DNA of 64,000 bases, taken from Deroplatys truncata (lineage: Eukaryota; Arthropoda; Insecta; Mantodea; Mantidae). The notes beneath the pieces were generated by a model. That model had not been told where the DNA came from. It saw only the letters and a program-made list of their open reading frames with translations, and did no database searches. Made by a program: the position numbers and the translations under genes. Shown here one piece after another: positions 11,270 through 14,635 of this stretch; the stretch's first letter is position 1; every line of letters begins with the position of its first letter. The DNA is taken from assembly GCA_030765065.1 (NCBI GenBank), contig CM060988.1:194802565-194866564 (forward strand). The letters run 5' to 3'.

Positions 11270-11797
11270 AAAGTTGAATGGTACCCTAGCTATCTAGCGA
11301 GCTACCTGTGGAAACACCAATAAAAAATGAAGATGTCCTGAGTTGGTGTAACCATGATCAACAAATGGAGCTCACAGACAACATTGTTGATATAATCCTA
11401 AATAGGAACACGACATTGATGAGAACACCCCAAAAGTTATGCATGCTGAGTGAGTGAAGATGTTCAAAGCTGCTATAGCCCACATTGAACAGCTTGATCT
11501 GCTGTTTCTACAGCACTGGCATTACATTACAGCTTCCAGGAGAGGAAAGTTAGCCAAAGAAATAAATCTTCTGATTTAATATTGTAATGTATTTATTTTT
11601 TAATTCAAATGCATTAAGTATTCAACATAAATTTTAAGGAATTATGTTGTAAGAGACAATTACTATAGGGTTTATTAAGCTTTTTTTTATAATTTATTTA
11701 TGGCCTATTAGCACATTATCTCCGCATTATCCGAGTTTTTCCACATCCGAGGTAGTCTCGGTCCCAATTAGCTCAGATAATCACAAGTCTACTGTAT
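11270..11797 (+). mobile_element. Pogo/Tigger (jerky-type) transposon 3' remnant
   Basis: The plus strand at about 11300-11580 encodes a stop-broken transposase C-terminus (EDVLSWCNHDQQMEL, then FKAAIAHIEQLDLLFLQHW). It has the layout of Tigger/jerky DDE proteins, whose tail follows the catalytic domain. About 170 bp downstream comes an inverted end. Read inward from 11797 it is TACAGTAGACTTGTGATTAT, followed by a partly palindromic run around 11715-11760. The left half of the element, including all catalytic motifs, is missing. Confidence 0.65.
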
Positions 11798-12184
11798 TTT
11801 CAGTGATTTCTATAATCAAATACTCCCTCTGTTCCAAAATATCGCATAGAAATGACTTCAAAGTGTGGGATTATGGCGCATGCGCTGTTGTACAAGGGTT
11901 TGATGGTCCAATATTTTCATTAGTGAATCTGGTTCTCTCGTACATGGATGTGATGGTTGTTCAGGCACTGTGAAAACAAAAATATTGAAATAGCTAATAA
12001 TGAACAGGAATCAAGCTGGCAGCAGCAGTGGCATTCCAGTGAAAGTCAAGAACAGCAACAGAGCCAAGTGTAAGTAGAATGTCCCAATCACAACAGTTGA
12101 CAACTGAATGCCATAATTCTGCAATTTCTATTACAGATGAAGAGAGGTAGCAACTTACAGAAGGATGCCATCAAGCCACTGCAA

Positions 12185-14000
12185 TTAAGGTTCAGGTAAC
12201 AGCTTTATCTATTTTGTGAATTTGGCACCATGCTAAAGTACAGTATGATCGGGGAAAGTTGGATGCTGATATCAGTTTTCAGAAAAAAGGAAAGTGTGGC
12301 CGTAAGTGCAAAGACTATTCAGTTCAATTGAACAAAATCAGAGACACCCCTCTGCACAAATGGATCTTTGGCATGTGCTATTGAGATGCCACTAACAACT
12401 TTGTTTTGGTATTTGAAAGAGGGAAACACAATCAAGAGAGTAACCTCCAGATTAAAGCCCCTGCTAATGGAAACTTCAAGACCATGTACAATTACATACA
12501 TAGATGAGAAGTGGTTCTATTTTCATCACCAAAATTATGTTCATGGCGGTGGTTGCAAGACCTATACTGCATTCACTCTTAGGTTGATCCGCACCAAAAC
12601 AAACGCACAAGACCAGTGCACTGTGACACAACACTGTAGCAATGCGTGCAGGAAAGTAGTCCCATGCTAAAAATCTAAATTTTAGAATGAATTTACCCTT
12701 AAATGGTACACAAATACTACACAAATACTCAAAAGTTTAATTAACACTAATTTATATCATTAAACAGAGCTACAAGTTCCAATATGCAATTCATATGAGT
12801 ACCTAACATCCGGGTATGCACAGAATATTATTTGTAGCCAGAAACCAGCAGCTTCTGTATAGTATCATGGCGGATGGTGATTTGCTCTTGTGTTTTCGTC
12901 GACTTATGTAAAGCATAAGCAGGCAAACCATTGACTAGTGTTGAAAAAACAAGTGTTGGAAGTTTATTGTAAGTTATATGAGAAATATCTAACACTTCTC
13001 GTGAAAGAAGTGATGAAATTAACTTCCGAGTTCACCGGTGTTTTGAGTAGAAATATACACAGTGCTGGTAAAGAAAAATCTGAAACAAGAAAGTGGTTAC
13101 AACCGGGGAAAACAGAAAGTGTGTGAAATACGTGATGCAAGAATGTGATAAGAATGCAATTCACGTAACAATATACAATTTCTTTTTTAAAAATGAGCCG
13201 CCAGCAGTTGATAAAGTGTCACTTCCAGAAAGCGAATAAAGGTAAGATATCGCATACCTGTTACTTTTCTTTTCGCTTGTTTCTTTTAGAATTAACTATC
13301 ATTACATGCAAAAACGTTTATTTTCTTGCCACTATCAATCTTATCACCTTCAACCCTAACAGAATATACTAGTCACAGTTTAAGCTGTCGGACCCTGTTC
13401 TTTTTGCATTACATGCCACTGTACTCGTCACATGGTTCGTGAAAATATGACAATATTTCTGGCGTGAATGGCAGAAGGATACGTCATAACGGTGCACTGG
13501 TCACCTGTGTTTTGTTTTGACACGGATCAACCTAAGAGTGAATGCAGTTTAGGTGGGATCCACATAAAAACCAGTGGTTTAATGATCGAATTGGCATTTG
13601 GCCATTCACTGACGTGACAGATGCCAAGAGAAACAGTAAGAACCGCCCACATGGCACTCCTGTTCTAACTGCCAAACCCTCTGTAACACAAAGTGACTGT
13701 CAAGCAATGCTGATCATCAATGTAATTCCAGCAATTAAAGAAAAGTTTCTGAAGAGTTAGAAAAAGAAAGCAATCACAATTCAACAGGATAAAGCTAAGT
13801 GTCATTGTCCTGATAATGACCCTCAGATCATCTTTGCAACCAAGACAGATGGTTGGAATATCGTGTTCAAAGGGCGGTGACCCAATAGCCCTAATTGAAT
13901 GTTCTGGATCTTGGATTTTTCAATACAATACAGTCCTTACAACATAAGAAGAGTCCACGAACACCTGCAGAATTGGTTGGCTCTTGTTATACAGGCATTC
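12185..14000 (+). pseudogene. DD39D mariner transposase, split and frameshifted
   Basis: Block 1 holds the paired HTH region (CGRKCKDYSVQLNKIRDTPL, then GNTIKRVTSRLKPLL) and the first catalytic motif IDEKWFYF near 12498-12522. Block 2 resumes with NDRIGIWPF and AKRNSKNRPHGT, then the second motif TIQQDKAKCH (Asp at 13788-13790), then NSP and LDLGFF (third Asp at 13907-13909). The second and third Asp codons are 119 nt apart. That equals 39 intervening residues less one deleted base, which matches the DD39D spacing known for plant-type mariners. An in-frame TAG follows the lysine-rich stretch at about 13758. The enzyme would cut and join DNA at TA targets in the nucleus; this copy cannot. Confidence 0.8.
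12566..13548. mobile_element. DNA transposon with perfect 26-bp inverted ends, nested
   Basis: The two ends are perfect reverse complements over 26 bp (12566-12591 and 13523-13548; core CACTCTTAGGTTGATCCG). They sit inside the coding region of the DD39D mariner, so this insertion is younger than its host. Looser similarity continues inward (AAAACAAA, CCAGTGCAC). The interior has a plus-strand segment at about 12938-13230 with LTSEFTGVLSRNIHSAGKEK, a QPGK motif and, in a shifted frame, YNFFFKNEPP. This resembles, by inference only, the HTH N-terminus of insect DDE transposases. It ends near AAAGGTAAGA, a possible splice donor. No catalytic motif is present. Confidence 0.6.
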
Positions 14001-14635
14001 AATGAACTCAGCAGGGAAAAATGGACAATGTTTTCCTCCCCTTGCATGCCACCTGTATGATGCACATGGGGAATGTTCATTGTCCAAGACTCTTCCATGC
14101 AAACCTGAAGTTATACAAGCAGTACAACAAACTCTAGCCTAGTATTGACTTAGTGTGGAATATAAACAAATGTTTATACCTTACTTTCAGTTGTATCCTG
14201 TATGTTATGTTTTGACAAATGCCAGATGTATGTGCCTTAGTTTTGTATATGTACTCGTAGCAGGCATATAATGTGTTTGTGTACTGTATACCACTCGTGT
14301 TTTCAAACAATATACATTATATACATGTGACTTATTTCTGTCTATGTGGTAAATGTAGACTATAGTAATTGTTAATAAAATAAATAATACATTCATATTC
14401 CTTATTCTGAAATATTTTACATATCTATACCATATATTGGAATGGAGGGAGTATAAAAATTTCAGTTCATTTAAAAAAAATTCAGCCGTTCAGATTTCCA
14501 GGAATTTTGAATTTCTCAAATTTTAAGATTTTTCAAAATTGAATTTTTGTACTCTGGGCTCCAGTTATTGATTTTATATTCCTTAACTATTCCCAAAAGT
14601 TGATTATATTACCAAATATTTATTTCATATAACTA

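Follow-up and report, generated by a model that had tools for sequence, protein, structure and literature searches.

How does a mariner-like element that resembles plant transposons come to lie in the genome of an arthropod? The question is raised by a decayed mariner-like element, with TA on both sides, at positions 11823-14451 of the 64-kb stretch of DNA analysed here (the window; C14:194802565-194866564 in an assembly of 4,289,915,091 bases and 818 contigs). An earlier note on this DNA had read the element as a plant-type DD39D mariner with Stowaway-like ends, and had left the choice between an unusual horizontal transfer and an overlooked animal lineage. We consider it very probable that the element is the dead remnant of an autonomous DD39D transposon and belongs to an old and diverse DD39D set that is resident in the arthropod.

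Structure of the window copy

The span that had been proposed, 11823..14451, proved exact, with TA-flanked inverted ends at its limits. From left to right, the features are as follows:

11821..11822, no strand, left TA target-site duplication, read from the sequence
11823..11854, plus strand, left terminal inverted repeat, CTCCCTCTGTTCCAAAATATCG..., 83% complementary to the right arm
11823..12115, plus strand, left block (query 1-293), retained in ~490-bp internally deleted MITE-like copies elsewhere
12097..12560, plus strand, 5′ part of the transposase, with the N-terminal DNA-binding region, the CGRK linker and the first catalytic D
12562..13553, no strand, nested high-copy repeat of ~990 bp with inverted ends of ~60 bp, which splits the transposase
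13556..14140, plus strand, 3′ part of the transposase, with IGIWPF, QQDKAKCH, LNVLDLGFF and the C-terminal tail
14245..14451, plus strand, right block (query 690-896), retained in the internally deleted copies
14420..14451, minus strand, right terminal inverted repeat, CTCCCTCCATTCCAATATATGG... on that strand, with one terminal box
14452..14453, no strand, right TA target-site duplication, read from the sequence

Since a ~990-bp repeat is nested inside the transposase, the element proper measures ~1.64 kb once this repeat is subtracted. Read inwards, the left end opens with the 13 bases CTCCCTCTGTTCC and the right end with CTCCCTCCATTCC, TA adjoins each, and the inverted arms span 11820-11854 and 14420-14454. 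The terminal pattern that the earlier note had given as CTCCCTC(T/C)(G/A)TTCC is present at both termini and nowhere else: in the 64-kb window, even when two mismatches are allowed, TACTCCCTC[CT][AG]TTCC is found at these two ends only. The right end is an exact fit to the Stowaway consensus CTCCCTCCRT (PMC1925063), and the left end shows one difference from it. Both ends of the window copy start with CTCCC, which PMC8472432 treats as a trait of the GT family. Other reports give CTCCCTCCGTCCC... and CTCCCTCCGTCCCAGTATAAC... for the ends of bamboo Ppmar2 (PMC6696609) and tactccctccgtccc... for a primer used on a rice Osmar14/Stowaway construct (PMC3660474).

In most of the family members compared, the terminal box at the right end is present as two direct copies ~37 bp apart; it is single in the window copy and in a few others. 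The doubled box recalls the double binding sites that occur at the ends of some other Tc1/mariner elements. Outside the element, the left flank (11690-11796) resembles by eye the terminus of a further element, CAGTAGACTTGTGATTATCTGAG... on the minus strand, which we take to be of the pogo/Tigger type.

The transposase reading of the window copy is broken across all three frames, with stops present. All four motifs that had been picked out previously were located (CGRK at 12295, IDEKWFYF at 12500, QQDKAKCH at 13782 and LDLGFF at 13904), in several frames interrupted by stops. The first catalytic aspartate is encoded by the GAT at 12503-12505, within IDEKWFYF; the 5′ part around it contains frameshifts and stops and lacks two stretches present in other copies, both of which, judged against the aligned relatives, flank this aspartate. 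The second and third aspartates (GAT 13788-13790 in QQDKAKCH and GAT 13907-13909 in LNVLDLGFF) lie 119 nt apart in different frames; a DD39D enzyme would require 120, and the missing nucleotide agrees with the frameshift (one indel) at this place. The 39-residue spacing that had been claimed is recovered intact in the relatives: D2 and D3 are exactly 39 residues apart in 17 of the 18 distinct related loci that could be scored, and 38 apart in the other, in a frameshift-tolerant alignment of 29 rows of which 10 were unscorable and two (L031 and L051) represent the same locus and were counted once. When the transposase pieces of the window copy were run against Pfam, no transposase domain was returned and there was one chance-level match only; DUF7769 (PF24964) went unrecognised in these decayed pieces.

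The repeat at 12562-13553, absent from the earlier description of the locus, is foreign to the mariner-like element. Among the best 40 of 4552 first-look candidates, it has 39 other copies of ~1 kb that are 83-90% identical to it. Its inverted ends read CTATACTGCATTCACTCTTAGG..., and it is preceded by YTA in all seven copies compared and followed by TAG in six of them, which suggests, as far as sequence can tell, a TA-centred target.

Family copies and MITE-like derivatives

The earlier note had proposed a genome-wide check for further copies with both ends, and this was productive: the two halves of the element, used as queries, uncovered at least 43 distinct same-family loci on 14 contigs, a lower bound because the best 40 candidates were scored per search, and correctly facing end pairs accompany 10 of 27 transposase loci (see below). 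Five more diverged places from the right-half search were excluded from this count. Long copies at C11:100.62 Mb, C12:26.39 Mb and C5:174.03 Mb share 75-84% nucleotide identity with the window copy. Many others are ~490 bp long and retain query positions 1 to ~293 and ~690 to 896. Nine derivative loci have exactly the same 293|690 joint, including its 3-base overlap; a single deletion followed by copying explains this most simply. Another type of deletion joins ~322-330 to ~754-784 at three loci. The derivatives have diverged from their consensus by a mean K2P of 0.094 (17 of the 21 extracted, four of >700 bp having been dropped). The ~490-bp copies end in CTACCTCCGTTCC, one base off the plant form, and start with CTACC; TA is visible beyond the outer end in part of the compared rows only, the target-site column having mostly been taken at the inner right boundary. 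Separately, in the relative at C12:26390379-26392120 (L011, L014) the right subterminal segment (query 660-720) is expanded to more than 20 tandem copies with 68-bp spacing; this subterminal array is a transposon end turning satellite-like.

This distribution bears on whether the locus could be plant DNA that contaminated the assembly, an outcome that would have undone the earlier reading and for which the one argument is that the family is known mainly from plants. We regard it as hardly credible. The contig that holds the window, at 194.8 Mb, is 224 Mb long, at least 43 family loci are distributed over 14 contigs (14-15 when all the searches are considered), and at least 39 further copies of the repeat that interrupts the element occur in this genome, so that contamination is in practice excluded. 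Contigs C1-C16 are large (13 listed at 155-707 Mb), and C6, C13 and C15 carry matches at 202, 209 and 129 Mb, respectively. The arthropod nature of the genome, also assumed in the earlier note, is backed by the start of contig C16, which is pure CCTAA, repeated 80 times over 400 bases; arthropod telomeres are usually of the TTAGG type. The other four contig ends sampled contain no CCTAA repeat, one of them being N at both stretch ends. At 707 Mb, C16 is more than twice as long as each of the other 12 listed contigs, a size that presumably fits a giant X chromosome such as those of some orthopterans.

DD39D clans and their ends in the host genome

Transposase searches at E up to 0.001 returned 64 DD39D matches with the catalytic region of the window copy, 127 with a clan B copy and 108 with a clan C copy. 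Merging the window and clan B searches gives at least 76 distinct DD39D loci on 15 contigs, a count in which the clan C search is unmerged, weak matches were not individually confirmed and the best candidates only were scored. In a maximum-likelihood tree, 27 aligned copies fall into three clans, A (which includes the window copy), B and C; the split of A from B+C, as well as B and C themselves, are each supported at 100/100. Amino-acid identity averages 0.30-0.37 when the A subgroups, B and C are compared with one another, and 0.62-0.71 within groups (the window subgroup, A2, B and C), with 0.52 in A3. The aligned copies have in common the signature IHIDEKWFY ... QQDNA.PH ... PPNSPDLNVLDLGFF.AIQSLQ. 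DUF7769, which we take to be a domain of plant and oomycete mariner-type proteins, scores above the cut-off 15 times across the genome, in several cases at loci of clans B and C, and is recognised in the L073 piece at E 5.5e-11. Pfam found DDE_3 in 4 of 10 relatives only, NCBIfam returned no match for two relatives, and PDB searches returned no transposase; PF24964 and PF01359 were found in none of 14 control genomes, from which we draw no inference.

Near-full-query matches from the clan B and C searches contain seven or more stops each, the longest stop-free matched stretch is 156 residues (clan B search) and, in the 28 aligned loci, no stop-to-stop frame that overlaps the transposase exceeds 235 aa; thus, no intact, working transposase was found among the scored candidates. 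Open frames of up to 441 aa are listed at a few places; at the C10 place listed with 381, the stop-to-stop frame is 196 aa.

Plant-type ends and DD39D transposases go together in this genome. There are 26 exact matches to TACTCCCTCCRTYCCA genome-wide, compared with three to the reversed control pattern, and 19 of the 26 have a DD39D match no more than 3 kb away, where 0.003 would be expected under uniform placement; the other seven have no DD39D match within 3 kb. Allowing one mismatch, 22 end-like matches, at 18 loci, occur in the 89.7 kb around 27 transposase loci, versus none in 99.0 kb of control. When as many as two mismatches are tolerated, correctly facing end pairs separated by 1-3 kb are found at 10 of these 27 loci and at none of the other 17. 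The ends differ by clan, being mostly CTCCCTCC in A2 and B and mostly CTTCCTCTGTCC in C.

Since the host is full of animal-type mariners (66,819 first-look DD34D candidates, with all of the best 150 that were scored matching), one could suppose that the element is a DD34D- or DD41D-type animal mariner that came to resemble the plant form in its ends and spacing by convergence. We judge this very unlikely, given the D2-D3 spacing of 39, the QQDNA...NSPDLNVLDLGFF block and the presence of DUF7769 in relatives. When three host DD34D mariners were added to the tree, the 21 DD39D rows used grouped together at 100/100 against this outgroup of three rows of one type only, and clan A alone was recovered at 91/95. 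Neither a 34-residue spacing nor a grouping with DD34D was found for the window element and its relatives. DD39D searches gave 157-208 first-look candidates, far fewer than those for animal-type mariners, and a single DD34D query against the 64-kb window, which bears on the earlier remark that all other mariners here are of animal types, gave nothing at E 1e-3.

The near-exact match of the ends to grass Stowaway elements, as described in PMC1925063 and PMC6696609, might alternatively point to a single, fairly recent transfer from a plant to the arthropod. Such an event is, in our estimation, very improbable: it would have to account for three deep clans, for nearest long copies with only 75-84% nucleotide identity to the window copy and for derivatives that lie ~9% from their own consensus. 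Dozens of relatives in three old branches look more like long-standing residents than like contamination or a chance recent transfer. Of the two possibilities left by the earlier note, the animal lineage is therefore favoured over an unusual horizontal transfer by the three deep clans and the 76 matching loci; its description as overlooked holds in part only, for a copy from a bee was already reported in 2021 (PMC8472432).

Relation to known elements and origin of the family

The DD39D family itself is already known. According to a 2020 phylogeny, DD39D belongs to the PlantMar family, whose hosts are confined to angiosperms and some oomycetes; after its switch to plants, a return to other hosts was, oomycetes apart, almost wholly lost (PMC7325037). 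Another account has DD39D/GT distributed in plants, with DD37D and DD41D mainly in invertebrates (PMC9777934). An insect record is an incomplete 2381-bp DD39D/GT element that starts with CTCCC, from the bee Lepidotrigona ventralis hoosana, the same bee being described as without the otherwise near-universal DD34D mariner (PMC8472432).

The elements described here resemble DD39D/PlantMar/Guest (GT) in the 39-residue spacing, CTCCC-type ends, TA target, MITE-like derivatives and, in relatives, a DUF7769-type N-terminus. They differ in host, which is an arthropod here compared with angiosperms and a few oomycetes in PMC7325037, in that no intact copy was seen here, and in length (~1.64 kb versus 2-6 kb for PlantMar). 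The earlier assignment to a plant-type DD39D family with Stowaway-like ends is thus backed by spacing, by published plant ends and by DUF7769 in relatives, and membership of the plant clade would rest on this spacing, these ends and one N-terminal domain rather than on a tree. With Stowaway MITEs and Osmar/Ppmar they share CTCCCTCCRT-like ends, TA and short deleted derivatives beside longer mariners, whereas the derivatives here have CTACCTCC ends, are ~490 bp long, number only tens among those seen and reside in an animal. The window copy has the ends of a Stowaway MITE but is not short, while the short derivatives carry CTACCTCCGT. With DD34D mariners of the Mos1/Himar type they have in common the Tc1/mariner superfamily and the TA target, but these have a 34-residue spacing and other sequence, and form a clearly separate branch.

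Compared by description with the bee copy (PMC8472432), they share an insect host, the CTCCC start and an incomplete transposase; there, a single record was reported, whereas here there are many loci, three clans, paired ends and derivatives. Chromosome context, the spread over contigs and the nesting exclude contamination here, which makes the present case firmer than the bee record.

A search for plant or oomycete relatives gave no confirmed match in the collections covered: in viral_contigs, one protein query returned six stretches and the A2 alignment 22, none confirmed, and the NVLDLGFF codon pattern gave eight matches, none of them a transposase on translation; in genome_contigs, the A2 alignment returned 20 stretches, none confirmed; and tblastn against plasmids and phages found no match. 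A literature search on the motif and on CTCCCTCC with mariner retrieved reported ends and no plant protein. Wang et al., the cited source for the GT family, reportedly treated the DD37D and DD39D families in eukaryotes in 2021 and may list animal hosts.

By analogy with characterised mariners and with rice Osmar/Stowaway, the transposase would have bound the terminal box through its N-terminal helix-turn-helix region, and its DDD catalytic triad would have excised the element for reinsertion at TA. Derivatives with internal deletions but with both ends preserved would have been moved in trans by the full-length enzyme to yield the ~490-bp MITE-like copies; we infer this trans-mobilisation because the ends and the deletion joint are shared, with the rice and bamboo relatives as an analogy. 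The copies would then have decayed, the window copy being interrupted by another host repeat. A long residence in the lineage is likewise probable.

How the set was founded is a separate matter. Several independent old transfers from plants or oomycetes, each founding one clan, are a possible though not the likelier origin, and this scenario overlaps with the old, diverse resident set that we favour. It is in keeping with clans that are on average 30-37% identical and differ in their ends, and with a published tree in which almost every DD39D element is from plants (PMC7325037); it would, however, require that transfer into one lineage succeeded three times or more, and the clans show age and decay but no trace of a recent transfer (mean intra-group amino-acid identity of 0.52-0.71 and several stops in each near-full-length match).

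Returning to the resident DD39D set, three deep arthropod clans with plant-type ends and MITE-like derivatives of their own contradict the strict plant restriction that is stated in PMC7325037. More speculatively, and in our view rather improbably, DD39D may not be a plant-restricted family at all: arthropods could be an ancient and possibly the original reservoir, within which several deep clans arose, and the plant elements together with their Stowaway MITEs could derive from transfer out of plant-associated arthropods. With these arthropod clans in hand, the direction of exchange between plants and animals becomes testable with a single broad tree.
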